This document shows, one piece after another, positions 39,091-45,799 of a DNA stretch of 64,000 nucleotides. Position 1 is the first letter of the stretch. Each line of letters starts with the position of its first letter. The stretch is from NCBI GenBank assembly GCA_902826565.1, contig CADEFF010000012.1, positions 1-64,000 of the forward strand, read 5' to 3'. Under the pieces are notes generated by a model, which was not told where the DNA came from, searched no databases, and worked only from the letters and a program-made list of their open reading frames with translations. The translations under genes were made by a program, and so were the position numbers. Source of the DNA: an uncultured Rhodospirillaceae bacterium. GTDB taxonomy: Bacteria > Pseudomonadota > Alphaproteobacteria > Dongiales > Dongiaceae.

Positions 39091-39311
39091 AGTCCAAAGA
39101 TTTGATTCGCATGGCCAACCAGATCGGCAGCTTCTTCGCCGCCTATCCGCGGCAGGAGGCGATCGACAGCATCGCGGACCACATCCGGAAGTTCTGGGAC
39201 CCGCGCATGCGCAAGCAGATCTTCGAGCATGTCGCCGCCGGCGGCGAAGGCCTGCAGGAGCTCACCCTGGAAGCGATCCGCAAGGTCCAGAAGGAAACGC
39301 AGCCCGCCTGA
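39087..39311 (+). CDS. fdsD: Formate dehydrogenase delta subunit
   Basis: 74-residue small protein that fits the FdsD family by size, position and sequence (LIRMANQIGSFFAAYP, IADHIRKFWDPRMRKQIFEH). In characterised operons it closes fdsGBACD and supports assembly or cofactor sulfuration of the enzyme. It has no cofactor motif. The ATG overlaps the fdhD stop (ATGA). Last gene of the operon, followed by a terminator-like stem. Confidence 0.9.
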   Translation: MKSKDLIRMANQIGSFFAAYPRQEAIDSIADHIRKFWDPRMRKQIFEHVAAGGEGLQELTLEAIRKVQKETQPA

Positions 39312-39347: not shown

Positions 39348-39498
39348 CCCGCTCTCCCGAGCTTTCCTGCCTCTCGCTGTGTCGCACCCTCACGCGGGGG
39401 TCACTTCGACGTGAAAATCCCGTGGGTTCCTTAAACAAGGGCGCCGCCTATGCTATCTCCTTGGCTGTTTCGGCGTTTCGATGCCCAGGAGAGACCTC

Positions 39499-39744
39499 AT
39501 GAAACCGTCCCTGATCGCCACGGCGTTCGCCGCCGCGCTTTCGGTCGGCGCCATCGCGACCGCGTCGGCAGCCGAGAACGAGAAGTGCTACGGCATTGCC
39601 GCGGCCGGCAAGAATGACTGCCAGACCTCGACCAGTTCCTGCGCCGGCACGGCCACAACGGACAACCAGCCCGACGCCTGGATTTACGTTCCGACGGGTA
39701 CTTGCGTGAAGATCGCCGGCGGCAGCCTGCAGCCGAAGGCCTGA
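39499..39744 (+). CDS. bufA: Bufferin precursor (DUF2282, BufA1-type periplasmic metallophore)
   Basis: 81-residue secreted small protein. A Sec signal peptide ([21 protein letters not shown], cleavage near A24) leaves a mature peptide of about 57 residues with four cysteines, C30, C41, C48 and C69, in the DUF2282 pattern [13 protein letters not shown]...SSCAG...PTGTC. Bufferins are RiPPs whose cysteines are modified by a BufB/BufC pair and which bind copper in the periplasm. AGGAGAG lies 5 bases before the ATG at 39499. An ATG at 39481 would spoil the signal peptide. First gene of bufABC-doxX. A TATGCT sequence at 39449 is a possible -10. Confidence 0.92.
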
Positions 39745-39812
39745 GCCCCGCGGACGGCCCCCTGTCCGGCGCCGCGCCCGATAGCCTCTTCGCTGCGCGT
39801 CCGATACCCGGA

Positions 39813-40646
39813 ATGACCGGGATCGGCCTGCGCTTCCCGCATCACGACGCCCTGCTCGCCGCGCCGGCGCCGGTCGGCTGGCTCGAGATCCATCCGGAGA
39901 ACTACTTCGGCGGCGGTCGACCGCGCCATTGCCTGGAGCGGCTCTCCGAGCGTTACCCGCTGAGCCTCCACGGCGTCGGGCTGTCGCTCGGCAGCGCGGA
40001 AGGCCCGGACAGCGCGCACCTCGAGAAGCTTCGCAAGCTGATCGACCGTTTCCGGCCGATCCTCGTTTCCGAACATGTCGCATGGACCGCGCAGGGCGGC
40101 ATTCATCTCAACGACCTGCTGCCTTTGCCTTACACGGCGGAAGCGCTCGAGACGCTCGTCGCCAATATCGACCGCACGCAGGACGTTCTCGGCCGCCATA
40201 TCCTCATCGAAAATCCGTCGAGCTATCTGAGCTTCACCCGCTCCGAGATGCCGGAATGGGATTTCATCGCGGCGGCCGTGGCGAGAAGCGGCTGCGGCCT
40301 GCTGCTCGATCTCAACAACCTCTATGTCAGCGCCCGCAATCTCGGGTTCGATCCCGATACCTATCTGGCGGCGATGCCGGGCGATGCCATCGGCGAGATT
40401 CATCTGGCGGGCCACGCCGTCCGGCACATCGAGGCCGTAGAGCTTCGCATCGACGATCACGGCTCGGCGGTCGACGAGGCCGTGTGGTCGCTTTACCGGC
40501 AGCTCGTCCGGCGCATCGGACCGCGCCCGACCCTGATCGAATGGGACAGCCGCATCCCGCCGCTCGCCACGCTGGTCGGGGAAGCCGCCAAGGCCGACGC
40601 GATCCTCGCCGAGCTCGCCGCGGAGGCGCGTCATGCGGCTCAATGA
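39813..40646 (+). CDS. bufB: BufB, DUF692 multinuclear non-haem iron oxidase (MNIO) for bufferin maturation
   Basis: 277-residue TIM-barrel DUF692/MNIO protein. Conserved metal-ligand segments can be followed through the barrel: WLEIHPENYF, SLHGVGLSLGS, LVSEHVAW, ILIENPSSYL, LLLDLNNLYV, GEIHLAGHA, IDDHGS and LIEWDS. MNIOs use an iron cluster and O2 to convert cysteines of precursor peptides into heterocycles, thiooxazoles in bufferins. The ATG at 39813 is the first standard start, but homologues often begin a little upstream of GIGL, so the N terminus may be longer through a TTG at 39702 inside bufA. Overlaps bufC by 14 bases. Confidence 0.92.
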   Translation: MTGIGLRFPHHDALLAAPAPVGWLEIHPENYFGGGRPRHCLERLSERYPLSLHGVGLSLGSAEGPDSAHLEKLRKLIDRFRPILVSEHVAWTAQGGIHLNDLLPLPYTAEALETLVANIDRTQDVLGRHILIENPSSYLSFTRSEMPEWDFIAAAVARSGCGLLLDLNNLYVSARNLGFDPDTYLAAMPGDAIGEIHLAGHAVRHIEAVELRIDDHGSAVDEAVWSLYRQLVRRIGPRPTLIEWDSRIPPLATLVGEAAKADAILAELAAEARHAAQ

Positions 40647-41409
40647 GCTGCAGGCGGCGATGCGCGCCGGCATCCTCGGCGAGCCGACCGAGGCGCTGCT
40701 CGCCGAAATCGACGGCTGCGGGCTTGCATCGGCGGCGCGGCTGCGGATCCATCGCAACAACACGCTGTTCGGCCTGACCGAGGCGCTGCGCACGAGCTTT
40801 CCCGCGGTTGCGCGGCTGGTGGGCGACCGCTTCTTCGATTTCGCGGCGGATCGCTTCATCCGCGGCGCCCCGCCCCGCGAACCTCGCCTCGCCAACTATG
40901 GCGCCGGATTCCCCGCCTTCCTCGCCGGTTTCGAGCCGGCCCGCACGCTTCCCTACCTGCCCGACATCGCCCGGCTCGAATGGGCCGTGAACCTCGCCTA
41001 CAACGCCCCCGATGAAGCGCCGCTGGCGCCCGCCGCGCTCGTCGATCTCGCGCCCGACGCTTACCCGCGGCTGCGCCTCGCGCTGCATTCGAGCTGCCGG
41101 CTGGTGCGATCCGGATTCCCGATCAAGCGCATCTGGCTCGCCAACCGGCCGGGTGCCGAAACGGAAGGTACGATCGACCTCGCCGAGGGCGGCGCGACGC
41201 TTCTGGTGATGCGCCGCGAGTTCGAGGTCGTCCTCATCGAGATCGAGCCCGCCGAGCATGATTTCCTTGCTTCGCTACGGGACGGCGGAACTATCGAGAC
41301 GGCCTGCACCTGCGCGCTGGCGACGGATGCGGCCTTCGATCTCGCCGGCCTCCTCGCACGGCAGTTCGCGCGAGGCAGTTTCGCGCGCGCGATTCTTCCG
41401 GCACCTTGA
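40633..41409 (+). CDS. bufC: BufC, DUF2063 partner protein of the MNIO
   Basis: 258-residue protein with the N-terminal DUF2063 helical domain (about residues 1-95, LRIHRNNTLFGLTEALRTSFPAVARLVG), once annotated as DNA-binding, and a C-terminal alpha/beta domain. In bufferin and methanobactin-like systems this family forms a complex with the MNIO and presents the precursor peptide to it. The start lies within the last 14 bases of bufB, so the two subunits are probably made in fixed ratio. Annotation as a transcription regulator would be misleading here. Confidence 0.9.
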   Translation: MRLNELQAAMRAGILGEPTEALLAEIDGCGLASAARLRIHRNNTLFGLTEALRTSFPAVARLVGDRFFDFAADRFIRGAPPREPRLANYGAGFPAFLAGFEPARTLPYLPDIARLEWAVNLAYNAPDEAPLAPAALVDLAPDAYPRLRLALHSSCRLVRSGFPIKRIWLANRPGAETEGTIDLAEGGATLLVMRREFEVVLIEIEPAEHDFLASLRDGGTIETACTCALATDAAFDLAGLLARQFARGSFARAILPAP

Positions 41410-41418
41410 GAACCGCTT

Positions 41419-41886
41419 ATGCCAAGGCTCGGCGAGAGCGCGTTTCGATTTGCGGCGTCGACCTTGGCGCGGCTCGACCGGCTGCCCCTTTGGCTTCCCG
41501 AGCTCCTGTTCCGCGTCGCGCTCGCCCTCGCCTTCTGGCGTTCCGCCCGGACGAAGCTCGCGAGCTGGGACATGACGCTCGCGCTTTTCGCCGACGAGTA
41601 TCGCGTGCCGCTTCTGCCGCCGGGGCTCGCCGCCTGTCTTGCCACCGGTGTCGAGATCGCGGCGCCCGCGGCCCTCCTCCTGGGGTTCGGAACGCGCATC
41701 GCCGCCCTTGCGCTGCTGATCATGACGCTCGTCATCCAGCTCTTCGTCTATCCCCAGAGCTATGCCGCCCATCTGCTCTGGGCGGGTCCGTTGCTCTATC
41801 TGATCCTGCGCGGACCGGGTCTGCTGTCGGCGGATCACCTGATCCGTCGCCGCTGCCGTCCGGCGCCGCCGGCGGCGCAGGGGTGA
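41419..41886 (+). CDS. DoxX-family membrane protein of the bufferin operon
   Basis: 155-residue DoxX-like protein with four predicted membrane segments (LLFRVALALAFWRSARTKLA, LAACLATGVEIAAPAALLLG, AALALLIMTLVIQLFVY, LLWAGPLLYLILRGPGLL). DoxX proteins are regular fourth members of bufferin operons, perhaps as quinone-linked oxidoreductase components or in export; the role is unproven. It starts 9 bases after bufC and closes the operon, 78 bases before the glycosyltransferase gene. Confidence 0.88.
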   Translation: MPRLGESAFRFAASTLARLDRLPLWLPELLFRVALALAFWRSARTKLASWDMTLALFADEYRVPLLPPGLAACLATGVEIAAPAALLLGFGTRIAALALLIMTLVIQLFVYPQSYAAHLLWAGPLLYLILRGPGLLSADHLIRRRCRPAPPAAQG

Positions 41887-41964
41887 CGCGGCCCGACGCC
41901 GCGGCTAGACTGCGGCCCTCGCCGACTCGCCGAACGTTCGGGCCGCGGCGCGATAGCGGAACTC

Positions 41965-42696
41965 ATGCGCTTTTCCATCGTCATCCCCGCCCATAACGAG
42001 GCCGAGAACCTTCCGGCGCTCGTCGCCGAGGCCATTGCCGCGACCGCGGGACAGCCGCCGGCGGCGATCATCCTCGTGGACGACGGCAGCGACGATGCGA
42101 CCGCACATTGCCTTGCCCCGCAGATCTCGGCTGGTGCGCCCATCCGCATCCTGCGCCATGACCGCCGGCGCGGCCTCAGCGCCGCGATCCTTACCGGCGT
42201 CCGCGGCGCCGACACGCCCTGGGTCGTCACCATGGATGGCGACGGCGAGAACGATCCGGCCGACATCCCGGCCCTGCTGCTGCGGCGCGACCGGGAAACG
42301 CCGCAACCGGCCCTCATTGGCGGGTTGCGCCGGCGCCGCCGCGCAAGCTGGTCGAAACGGGCGGCGTCGCGCTTCGCCAACCGCCTCCGCGGCTGGCTGC
42401 TGCGGGACGGCTGCCCCGATACCGGCTGCGGCCTCAAGCTCTTCCGCCGCGACGCCTTCCTCGCGCTCCCGAGCTTCGACGGCATGCACCGGTTCCTGCC
42501 GGCGCTGTTCCGCATGCACGGGCACAAGGTGGCGTATGTCGAGGTCAACGACCGGATGCGGCGGCACGGCCGATCGCATTTCGGTAATCTCGACCGCGGC
42601 TTGCGCGGCGCGGCCGATCTCATCGGCGTCATGTGGCTCACCCGGCGCCGGATGCCGCCGCCCGATACCGATTCAACAAGGGACGAGAGACCATGA
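41965..42696 (+). CDS. Family 2 glycosyltransferase (polyprenyl-phosphate sugar synthase-like)
   Basis: 243-residue GT2 enzyme. The GT-A core starts at the N terminus with FSIVIPAHNEAENLPALV, then VDDGSDDATAH, and the DxD region TMDGDGENDPADIP. CPDTGCGLKLFRRDAFLALP resembles dolichol-phosphate mannose/ArnC-type synthases. No C-terminal membrane segments are present. Expected product: an undecaprenyl-phosphate-linked sugar made on the cytoplasmic face for the GT39 enzyme two genes on. The stop overlaps the next ATG. Confidence 0.87.
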   Translation: MRFSIVIPAHNEAENLPALVAEAIAATAGQPPAAIILVDDGSDDATAHCLAPQISAGAPIRILRHDRRRGLSAAILTGVRGADTPWVVTMDGDGENDPADIPALLLRRDRETPQPALIGGLRRRRRASWSKRAASRFANRLRGWLLRDGCPDTGCGLKLFRRDAFLALPSFDGMHRFLPALFRMHGHKVAYVEVNDRMRRHGRSHFGNLDRGLRGAADLIGVMWLTRRRMPPPDTDSTRDERP

Positions 42697-42980
42697 TGGA
42701 TGCGGAACATGTCTGGATGGGGATCGGGTTTCTCGGTCAGGCCTTCTTCTCCGCGCGCTTTATCGTGCAGTGGCTCGCGAGCGAACGCGTCGGCCGAAGC
42801 ATCATTCCGGAGCTCTTCTGGTATTGCAGCATCGGCGGCGGCGTGACGCTGCTCTGCTATGCGATCTCGCGGGCGGACCCGGTCTTCATCGTCGGCCAGG
42901 CGGGCGGACTTTTCATCTATGGCCGCAACATCTACATGATCTGGCGCGAACGGCGTCGAAACACCGCCCTTCCGCAATGA
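42693..42980 (+). CDS. Small membrane protein with lipid-A-disaccharide synthase N-terminal (LAB_N) domain
   Basis: 95-residue integral membrane protein of the LAB_N family: WMGIGFLGQAFFSARFIVQW, IPELFWYCSIGGGVTLLCYA and DPVFIVGQAGGLFIYGRNIY make three membrane segments. LAB_N proteins are found fused to LpxB or free-standing next to lipid-linked sugar enzymes. The function is not established, although flipping or organising lipid-sugar donors is plausible. The ATG at 42693 overlaps the GT2 stop, and its own stop overlaps the GT39 ATG, so translation of three genes is chained. Confidence 0.88.
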   Translation: MMDAEHVWMGIGFLGQAFFSARFIVQWLASERVGRSIIPELFWYCSIGGGVTLLCYAISRADPVFIVGQAGGLFIYGRNIYMIWRERRRNTALPQ

Positions 42981-44668
42981 CGGCGACGGCCCTCGAGCGG
43001 CTGCCCCGGGGGCCGGCGCGCTTCCTCCTCGTGGCGCTGTTCGCCCTTGCGATCTGGCTGCCCGGCTTCGCGACGCTTCCGGCGATCGACCGCGACGAAT
43101 CCCGCTTCGCCCAGGCGACGAAGCAGATGCTGGAGACCGGCGACTTCATCGACATCCGGTTCCAGGCCGAGCCGCGCTACAAGAAGCCGATCGGCATCTA
43201 CTGGCTGCAGGCGGCCGCGGTGTCGCTCGCCGGCGAGACGGCGCGCGACGCGATCTGGCCCTATCGCCTCCCGTCGCTCCTCGGCGGGCTGGCCGCGCTC
43301 CTGGTGCTGGTGGCGCTCGGCGACCGGCTCTTCGGCGCGCCGGTCGGGCTCGTCGCCGGCCTGCTGATGGCGGCGGTGCCGCTGACCGGCATCGAGGTCC
43401 GCATGGCCACGACCGATGCGGTGCTCCTTGCCTGCTGCCTTGTCGCGCAATGGGCGCTCGCCGGCATCTATCTGCGCCGGGACGCCCTGCGCGGCGTCGG
43501 TCAGCCCTGGCGCCACCGCTGGGGCGAGCCGCTGCTGTTCTGGATCGCGATCGGCGCCGGCATCCTCATCAAGGGACCGATCGTCCTGCTCGTGGCCGGC
43601 GGCACGATCCTCGGCCTCGCGATCATGGAACGGCGCGGCGCCTGGCTGCTCGATCTGCGCCCCTTGACGGGGCTCGCGACCGTCCTCGCGCTGGTGCTCC
43701 CCTGGTTTCTCGCGATCATGCAGGCGAGCGACGGCGCCTTCGCCGACAAGGCGCTCGGCCACGATTTCCTCGGCAAGCTTACCGGCATCCAGGAATCCCA
43801 TTTCGGCCCGCCCGGCACCTACTTGCTGGCCTTTTGCCTCACCTTCTGGCCGGCGACCCTGGTTGTGGCCTTCGCGGCGCCCGCGCTATGGCGTGCCCGG
43901 GGAGACGATCCCGTGCGGTTCTGCCTCGCCTGGATCGTTCCGGCCTGGATCGCCTTCGAGCTCGCCCTCACCAAGCTGCCGCATTACGTGCTGCCGCTCT
44001 ATCCGGCGATCGCGGTCCTGACGGCGCAGGCGCTGAGCCGGCTCCCCCGGTTCGTCGCGGGGCCGCAGGAAACCCGCCATCGCGCCCTGCGCAACGCGGC
44101 CTTCGCCGGATGGTTCGGCATCGGGCTCGCCCTCGGCAGCCTCGGCCTGTTGCTTCCCTGGCTTCTCGGCGCCCCCCTTCCGGATCTGGCCTGGGCGATA
44201 CCGGTTCTGCTGGCGATCCCGCTCGGGTTCGCCCTGTTCGCCTTTCAGCGAGCGCAGCCCGCGGCCCTTCTCGCGAGCCTTCTTGTAGCGGCAGCCCTCG
44301 TCGCCGTCCCGCTCTATGGCTGGATGCTGCCGCAGCTCGACAGGGTCTGGCTCACCCGTGCCGTTGCCGCCGCCGTCGAGGCCCATCGTCCCTGCCCCGA
44401 CACGACCCTTCTCGCCGCGGGCTACCTTGAGCCGAGCCTCGTCTTCACCCTCGGCACCCAAACGGCGCTGGTCGCACCCTCGGAAGCCGCGACCCGGCTT
44501 TCGGGCGATCCCCGATGCGGCCTGGCGCTGATCGGCGCCGCGGAGGCCGGTCCCTTTCAGGCGCGCCTCGCCGAGCTCGGCCGGCGCGCCCATACCCTCG
44601 CCACCGTCGACGGATTCAACTATTCGAATGGGGATGCGGAGCATCTCACGCTTTTCCAGGCGGATTGA
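42977..44668 (+). CDS. Family 39 (ArnT/PMT-like) membrane glycosyltransferase
   Basis: 563-residue polytopic protein with about 11-12 membrane segments. The first periplasmic loop carries the acidic GT-C signature LPAIDRDESRFAQATKQMLE and the following PRYKKPIGIYWLQ, as in ArnT enzymes that add a sugar from undecaprenyl phosphate to lipid A or another envelope acceptor. The C-terminal part forms a small soluble domain. The ATG overlaps the LAB_N stop. The acceptor is unknown; the LAB_N neighbour favours a lipid A-related target. Confidence 0.88.
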   Translation: MTATALERLPRGPARFLLVALFALAIWLPGFATLPAIDRDESRFAQATKQMLETGDFIDIRFQAEPRYKKPIGIYWLQAAAVSLAGETARDAIWPYRLPSLLGGLAALLVLVALGDRLFGAPVGLVAGLLMAAVPLTGIEVRMATTDAVLLACCLVAQWALAGIYLRRDALRGVGQPWRHRWGEPLLFWIAIGAGILIKGPIVLLVAGGTILGLAIMERRGAWLLDLRPLTGLATVLALVLPWFLAIMQASDGAFADKALGHDFLGKLTGIQESHFGPPGTYLLAFCLTFWPATLVVAFAAPALWRARGDDPVRFCLAWIVPAWIAFELALTKLPHYVLPLYPAIAVLTAQALSRLPRFVAGPQETRHRALRNAAFAGWFGIGLALGSLGLLLPWLLGAPLPDLAWAIPVLLAIPLGFALFAFQRAQPAALLASLLVAAALVAVPLYGWMLPQLDRVWLTRAVAAAVEAHRPCPDTTLLAAGYLEPSLVFTLGTQTALVAPSEAATRLSGDPRCGLALIGAAEAGPFQARLAELGRRAHTLATVDGFNYSNGDAEHLTLFQAD

Positions 44669-45365
44669 CGCGCAGCGCCCGCCGCTGACCGACAGGACGA
44701 GCCTCGCCGCGCTCGCGCTGGCCGCGCTTTCGATCCCGCCGCTCTGGTATTTCGCGGATCCCTGGATCGCCGAGGCGATGACGCGGCTCGACCCGTCGGT
44801 GACCGGTTTCTTCCAGTCCATCACCTTTCTCGGCAAGTCGGCCGGCTATCTGGTCGGAAGCGCCCTGCTCGCGCTCGGCTTCCTTCTCTGGGCGCGCCGG
44901 CCCGGGATCGCCGTCCGCGACCGCTATCGCGCGATCTGGCGCGGCGAGGCCGCGCTCTACGTGCTGAGCGTGGTGGCGGCCGCCGGGATCGTCATCAACA
45001 TCATCAAGCCCCTGGTCGGGCGGATGCGGCCGGTGAAGCTGCTTTCCGAAGGGCAATATGGCATCGAGCCGGGAAGCCTCGACTATGCGCTGCGCAGCTT
45101 CCCCTCCGGCCATGCCACGACCGTCTTCGCGCTCGCCTTCGCGCTCGGCGCCCTCTGGCCGCGCTTTCGCTGGGCGTTCGCGTTGCTGGCGCTGCCCGTC
45201 GCGGCCAGCCGCGTCGCCATCACGGCGCACTTCATGTCGGATGTGGTGGCGGGGGCGGTGGTCGGTATCGTCACGGCGCTGGTGCTGCGCCGGATCTTCG
45301 CGCACTACCGGATCGCCTTCCGTGCCGAGGGCAAGGGATATCGCCTGCCGGCCTATGCCGACTGA
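44628..45365 (+). CDS. PAP2-family membrane phosphatase
   Basis: 245-residue membrane protein with the three-part PAP2 active site: KPLVGRMRP (about residues 127-135), FPSGH, and SRVAITAHFMSDVVAG. Such enzymes dephosphorylate undecaprenyl pyrophosphate, phosphatidylglycerol phosphate or lipid A. The start lies 41 bases inside the GT39 gene (an ATG at 44634 is an alternative), placing it in the same operon. Possible jobs: recycling the polyprenyl carrier or dephosphorylating the lipid acceptor. Confidence 0.88.
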   Translation: MGMRSISRFSRRIDAQRPPLTDRTSLAALALAALSIPPLWYFADPWIAEAMTRLDPSVTGFFQSITFLGKSAGYLVGSALLALGFLLWARRPGIAVRDRYRAIWRGEAALYVLSVVAAAGIVINIIKPLVGRMRPVKLLSEGQYGIEPGSLDYALRSFPSGHATTVFALAFALGALWPRFRWAFALLALPVAASRVAITAHFMSDVVAGAVVGIVTALVLRRIFAHYRIAFRAEGKGYRLPAYAD

Positions 45366-45375
45366 GCGAGCCGGC

Positions 45376-45558
45376 TCAGAAGTCCAGGATCGCGCTCGCG
45401 AAGAGCAGCAGGACCAGCAGGACCGCGAGAGCGCCGGAGACGCCCAGGGCGAGGAGCAGCCCGTGCTGCAGGCGGGAGCGCGGCACCGGGAGAGGCTGGG
45501 GCAGGAAGCCGCGTGCGGCATCGCAGCGGCGGGTAAGTTCGGCCATTTCCATGGTCAT
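45376..45558 (-). CDS. Small single-pass membrane protein, function unknown
   Basis: About 60 residues: a polar N-terminal half (MTMEMAELTRRCDAARGF) and one C-terminal membrane segment (GLLLALGVSGALAVLLVLLL). I do not recognise a family. The tail-anchored layout and regular codon use make it plausible, but no ribosome site decides between ATGs at 45558, 45552 and 45546. It converges on the PAP2 gene with a 10-base gap. Upstream (45559-45799) I see no further gene. Confidence 0.5.
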   Translation of the reverse strand: MTMEMAELTRRCDAARGFLPQPLPVPRSRLQHGLLLALGVSGALAVLLVLLLFASAILDF

Positions 45559-45799
45559 CGATCTTGCGGCAATCATGGTTCGCTCCCGCCTCGCCGCCAT
45601 GCATGAACGCACCGGTCGGGCCGGAGCGAGAATGCTACCCGGTCATGGTTTCAATTCGCTGAATAGAAGGTGGCTTCGCGGCGACGTCGAGGCTTTCCCG
45701 TGGCGGGTCCGGCGGCGGCGGAAACGACCGGCGCCAAGGCCGCGGCGGGAAACGGATTAACGGCTTCCTAAAGCCCCGATCGGCGTCCGCGAAGCGCTC

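Follow-up and report, generated by a model that had tools for sequence, protein, structure and literature searches.

A Buf1-type bufferin operon with a candidate CenR-type operator in an uncultured Rhodospirillaceae bacterium

Bufferin operons are known in thousands. The operon found in the 64,000-nucleotide stretch of DNA analysed here (the window), from an uncultured Rhodospirillaceae bacterium, raises the question of how such genes are switched on where the sigma-F/NrsF route appears to be missing. That route was the sole one that we found described for Buf1-type operons, and we found no description of CenR-type control of bufferins in the literature. CenKR is an envelope-stress two-component system of alphaproteobacteria with an essential regulon. 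As the best overall explanation we propose, with a probability of roughly 0.65, that the window holds a single-copy Buf1-type bufferin operon which is not read by sigma-F/NrsF and which a CenR-type regulator would activate through a palindrome at 39401-39414. The operon itself belongs to a known family; new here are a control site conserved over many families and a lineage-specific cassette of envelope-sugar genes.

The bufferin operon

The genes bufA, bufB, bufC, and doxX form an intact Buf1-type bufferin operon, in which neighbouring genes overlap or lie a few bases apart:

39499-39744, + strand: bufA, Buf1-type (DUF2282) bufferin precursor of 81 aa (PF10048, 7e-26; invariant cysteines)
39741-40646 (start uncertain), + strand: bufB, MNIO bufferin maturase (PF05114, 2e-103; NCBIfam MNIO_BufB)
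40633-41409, + strand: bufC, MNIO partner (PME type 1; DUF2063 and RRE-type domain; PF09836, 5e-20; AlphaFold2 fold)
41419-41886, + strand: doxX, DoxX-family membrane protein of the bufferin core (PF07681, 1e-15)

BufA is read from the ATG at 39499, which has AGGAG immediately 5' of it; the in-frame ATG at 39481 is an alternative start. The protein scores 90.4 bits against PF10048 (cut-off, 22.4), and each of its cysteines, at positions 30, 41, 48, and 69, is a cysteine in 155/155 collected homologues. As judged by inspection only, it has the features of a signal peptide, namely MK, a hydrophobic stretch, and an ASA cleavage motif. With its four cysteines, in contrast to the 6 or 12 of Buf2, it remains below the cut-off of the NCBIfam BufA2 model (27.7 bits; cut-off, 60). 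The genome contains a single MNIO gene and a single DUF2282 gene, so that buf is its sole MNIO/DUF2282 locus, and DUF2282 is present in 17/17 genomes of the host's family.

BufB lies above the gathering cut-off of the Pfam family MbnB_TglH_ChrH (PF05114) and, with 372.5 bits, above the cut-off of 310 of the NCBIfam MNIO_BufB equivalog model. Alignment with solved MNIOs revealed the motifs HG, SEH, EN, DLNN, HLAGH, DDH, and EWD to be intact. Its start may be a TTG at 39702 within bufA, a CTG at 39741 overlapping the bufA stop, or an ATG at 39813; the CTG fits best by length, because the homologue of G014, a relative from another genus of the family, begins ~26 residues ahead of the conserved GVGL motif.

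The bufC gene overlaps bufB by 14 nt and encodes a protein of 258 aa that lies above the gathering cut-off of PF09836. BufC has the composition that defines a PME-type-1 partner, a DUF2063 domain with an RRE-type domain in about 250-260 aa. TglI and NGO1945 are the two reference partner proteins. Because no PDB entry matched BufC by sequence, a fold search was undertaken with an AlphaFold2 model built from 48 homologues (pLDDT, 95), and the predicted fold was found to be nearest to those of TglI (8hci, 8hi7) and NGO1945 (3dee). The doxX gene follows after a gap of 9 nt. DoxX is above the gathering cut-off of PF07681 (58.6 bits) and below that of the NCBIfam HvfX model (52.5; cut-off, 80); a doxX gene is frequent in Buf1 clusters and not obligatory.

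The operon is almost certainly a bufferin operon, and it is an ordinary new member of this known family. An earlier note on this DNA had read it so, with a Sec signal peptide and four intact cysteines on BufA and complete MNIO ligand motifs in BufB. Its coordinates, gene order, strand, and tight packing match the sequence and its open reading frames, these details are all present, and every family feature accessible to sequence and predicted fold was found. The four-cysteine precursor, the MNIO, the DUF2063 partner, DoxX, and the gene order are shared with the Buf1 (DUF2282) bufferins of Caulobacter crescentus (CC3254-CC3257), from which the window operon differs in its single copy, in having neither a sigma-F promoter nor NrsF, and in the upstream palindrome of CenR type and the downstream envelope-sugar genes. 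Captophorins, EGKCG oxazolins, and Buf2 bufferins likewise combine an MNIO and a PME-type-1 partner with an exported cysteine peptide and, by homology, thiooxazole chemistry, whereas the precursor in the window is of the DUF2282 type.

According to earlier studies of bufferins, the two central cysteines become thiooxazoles through BufBC, the outer pair is joined by a disulphide, and Cu(I) is bound by the exported peptide (PMC12452194; PMC13097082). Nothing in the window departs from this scheme, and the chemistry proposed here is carried over from these other bufferins. By analogy, BufB, as a multi-iron MNIO, and BufC, holding the precursor, would convert C41 and C48 of BufA to thiooxazoles in the cytoplasm. 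BufA would then be exported by Sec, C30 and C69 would pair as a disulphide, and the mature peptide would bind excess Cu(I) in the periplasm, with DoxX as a putative accessory membrane protein.

Genes on either side of the operon

The genes for a formate dehydrogenase (fds) end at 39311, 187 nt before bufA and on the same strand. This neighbour, to which the earlier note had drawn attention, truly adjoins buf, but the arrangement is not conserved: as judged by the position of FdsD, fds lies apart from buf in 12/12 relatives that have it, and megabases apart in the complete genome G013, a second relative from the other genus. With fds elsewhere in all 12, formate dehydrogenase was rejected as a functional partner of buf, and the adjacency is incidental.

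No sigF or nrsF gene was found beside the operon, as had been noted before, and NrsF has no match anywhere in the genome (94.4% complete). The sigma-F motif GTAAC-N16-18-CGAA (GTAACC-N16-CGAA), taken from PMC3511200, precedes bufA in many relatives and at 28/111 class loci and is absent from the 160 nt upstream of bufA in the window. Sigma-F control of the window operon was rejected because NrsF and the promoter motif are both missing, and the earlier expectation that control differs from the Caulobacter case is borne out to this extent.

Downstream of doxX, and on the same strand as buf, are four genes that overlap one another, followed by a small open reading frame on the other strand:

41965-42696, + strand: GT2 glycosyltransferase (ArnC/DPM-like), first cassette gene and possible operon extension (PF00535, 4e-25)
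42693-42980, + strand: LAB_N small membrane protein of the cassette (PF07578, 1.5e-30)
42977-44668, + strand: PMT/ArnT-like integral membrane glycosyltransferase of the cassette (PF13231, 1.7e-14)
44628-45365, + strand: PAP2 phosphatase of the cassette (PF01569, 1.7e-25)
45376-45612, - strand: small antiparallel membrane open reading frame, the end of the block conserved with G013 and G014 (homology to G014)

The antiparallel frame has no Pfam match and is 39% identical to its G014 counterpart over 70 aa (E, 3e-12). The whole arrangement, GT2-LAB_N-PMT-PAP2 and the antiparallel frame, was also found behind bufABC, there without doxX, in G013 and G014. Protein identity is 45-66% (46-49% for PMT and 45% for PAP2), and the upstream flanks differ. 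LAB_N occurs in 3/17 genomes of the order, these three, each time directly behind buf. The linkage of buf and the cassette is real and lineage specific, and a joint function may underlie it.

In composition (GT2, small LAB_N, PMT-type transferase, PAP2) the cassette resembles the ArnC/ArnT-like and FlmF/FlmK-like systems of lipid A sugar modification. In contrast to the Arn system, its proteins score far below the NCBIfam cut-offs (85 bits of 529 for the ArnC model and 69 bits of 567 for ArnT) and are not ranked as ArnC and ArnT orthologues. Among 385 class genomes, in which LAB_N was found in 106 and DUF2282 in 135, comparison of the listed positions by eye revealed no linkage of the two outside the host family. 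In 106 class loci with bufB, no LAB_N, PMT, or PAP2 gene was located within about 5 kb, and the cassette was rejected for the class as a companion of bufferins in general. GT2-LAB_N often stands by itself as a module, at times together with PMT.

We regard it as possible, though doubtful, that buf and the cassette constitute one envelope-defence operon (39481-45365), which would be compatible with CenR-type activation. Equally tentative is the role that such an operon might have, the combination of periplasmic copper buffering with the capping of an envelope lipid (e.g., lipid A phosphate) with an undecaprenyl-phosphate-borne sugar. The constant position of LAB_N behind buf, at the identities given above and with differing upstream flanks, points in this direction, yet the three genomes belong to one clade, in which the arrangement may have been inherited from a single chance event; their BufB sequences likewise cluster, together with just one further sequence (98/95). 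The distances are short, with 78 nt between doxX and GT2 (41886-41965) and about 41 nt between buf and the cassette in G014, and no terminator-like site was found between buf and GT2; against this, a GC-rich hairpin spans these 78 nt (-40.5 kcal/mol; z, -1.5), only slightly stronger than that of shuffled sequence. A CenR box would fit an envelope operon, while the count of 0/106 in the class and the stand-alone GT2-LAB_N modules argue against such a unit.

A palindrome upstream of bufA

The earlier note had advised a search for a regulator site near 39420-39480. A candidate was found, but just upstream of that range:

39401-39414, no strand: TCACTTCGACGTGA, palindrome TCAC-N6-GTGA, candidate CenR-type operator (rarity, enrichment at bufA and srlA, match to the CenR box)
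39415-39480, + strand: presumed promoter region and leader, with a weak -10-like TATGCT at 39449-39454 and without a sigma-F motif (from the sequence)

A consensus scan upstream of bufA revealed no sigma-70-type promoter; the weak -10 at 39449, if used, would place the palindrome near -53. TCAC-N6-GTGA has a single copy in the 64-kb window and 19 sites in the 4.19-Mb genome, compared with 1 for the reversed control pattern.

About 120 class loci were compared, and 111 bufA upstream regions were scored for all 256 possible half-sites within 200 nt. The TCAC half-site precedes bufA in 15/111, and the next-best half-site in 4/111. Box-bearing bufA genes belong to 12/60 families, with a mean of 0.5 over all half-sites; because related loci are not independent, this family count weighs most among the box statistics. 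Only the spacing of 6 is enriched (26 loci, versus 0-2 for other spacings), the density of the box is 0.67 per kb upstream of bufA versus 0.022 in the remainder of the same loci, and the box precedes 11/1032 control genes (1%; Fisher P, 8e-10 versus bufA). It was also found upstream of bufA in five Bradyrhizobium genomes and in four genomes from a further genus within the host's family. The exact box is missing from most bufA upstream regions (about 86%), including those of G013 and G014, the closest relatives. Judged by this distribution, the palindrome at 39401-39414 very probably serves as a genuine operator of bufA.

Box-bearing bufA genes have no regulator gene as a constant neighbour, and a dedicated adjacent regulator of buf was rejected since none is conserved there. 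The palindrome was also rejected as a general copper operator, because 0/48 upstream regions of class DUF411 copper genes carry TCAC-N6-GTGA. In the host genome, the box lies about 110-123 nt upstream of the sole DUF411 gene (L258:4001-4014), an occurrence that is not conserved elsewhere and, given the 0/48 in the class, is probably an exception or due to chance. A different pattern, ATGA-N6-TCAT, was observed in 11/48 of the DUF411 upstream regions (L263-L312) and is possibly a CopR/CusR-like box. In Bradyrhizobium and two class loci (L041, L043, L045, L046, L048, L217, and L222), the box is followed 10-15 nt downstream by a sigma-F-type promoter, which suggests dual control at these loci.

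CenR as the candidate binder

A literature search for the palindrome motif led to the CenR box of srlA in Sinorhizobium meliloti, where AGTCAC-N6-GTGACT adjoins the -35 of srlA and is required for its activity, as found with a mutated repeat, and where purified CenR binds the srlA promoter in EMSA (PMC9561847). Sites of this form, e.g., TCACCTCCTCGTGAG, also occur among those of Rhodobacter sphaeroides CenR, which has rpoH1 among its targets and has been described with the direct repeat TGA-N8-TGA; CenK/CenR have been reported to be conserved in alphaproteobacteria (PMC9275681). In Brucella, a second regulator, EssR, has targets in common with CenR (PMC10746171).

The host genome encodes an srlA homologue (DUF1223, 7e-68; PDB 2axo, 1.8e-39), and one of the 19 boxes lies ~45-60 nt upstream of its likely start; one of the 19 is also located upstream of an rpoH-like sigma gene. 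DUF1223 genes served as a positive control: the exact box stands upstream of 14/30 in the class, where the next half-site reaches 6, and of 7/14 in the family. The bufA genes of G013 and G014 lack the box, and their srlA site shows it with a single mismatch. The published CenKR regulon (srlA in S. meliloti; rpoH1 and tolQRAB in R. sphaeroides) and the host's srlA and rpoH-like genes thus resemble bufA in the TCAC-N6-GTGA inverted repeat upstream, whereas no bufferin is among the published CenKR targets examined.

From the likeness of the sites, CenR is the most likely candidate to bind the bufA palindrome, a reading that we hold to be fairly probable. We infer the binder, the activation, and the signal alike: a CenR-type response regulator of a CenKR system would activate buf by binding at 39401-39414, directly ahead of the promoter. 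Such CenKR-type activation of bufA is predicted with a similar, somewhat better than even, expectation.

It is rather unlikely that this is a standard bufferin operon with its palindrome bound by a regulator other than CenR, such as a metal sensor or an EssR-like response regulator. Given the direct repeat described in R. sphaeroides and EssR in Brucella, where the two regulators have targets in common (PMC10746171), another OmpR-type protein could bind the box, and the enrichment at bufA holds whatever protein binds. In Bradyrhizobium and in two genomes of the class the box precedes the sigma-F -35, so that it may tune expression rather than switch it. What speaks for CenR is that srlA, a proven CenR target, is marked by the same box in the host genome, the family, and the class, that no regulator gene consistently adjoins box-bearing bufA, and that the DUF411 copper genes do not share the box. 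That the palindrome is a chance match, with the operon constitutive or transcribed from the upstream fds promoter, is improbable even though no consensus promoter was found and fds, with the same orientation, stops 187 nt short of bufA, since 19 sites in 4.19 Mb give a chance of only ~0.1% per given 200 bp, the site class recurs in other genomes, and fds and buf are unlinked elsewhere.

With CenR as the binder, a palindrome common to bufA and the proven target srlA over a dozen families would put copper-binding RiPPs inside the CenKR regulon, and the box suggests that bufferins may naturally be induced by damage to the envelope no less than by copper. More speculatively, bufferins might belong to the CenKR envelope-stress regulon across a broad range of alphaproteobacteria, in parallel to sigma-F/NrsF, and here, with the glycosylation cassette, copper buffering and envelope remodelling might be induced together.

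Other buf loci showed further arrangements. Tandem bufA copies (two, or three in L050) were found in two other genera of the family (L050, L053, L060, L063, and L064), and the second bufA copies of one genus have another conserved upstream stretch in common, GACACGGCATTTYAG. Isolated bufA-doxX pairs, for which no neighbouring MNIO was found, were observed in L052, L054, and L068; among them are pairs in G013 and G014, the genomes with bufABC lacking doxX. A contig labelled Stygiobacter (Ignavibacteriota; L031) contains a bufferin operon, probably through a binning error or transfer, and its BufB is 56% identical to that of the window.
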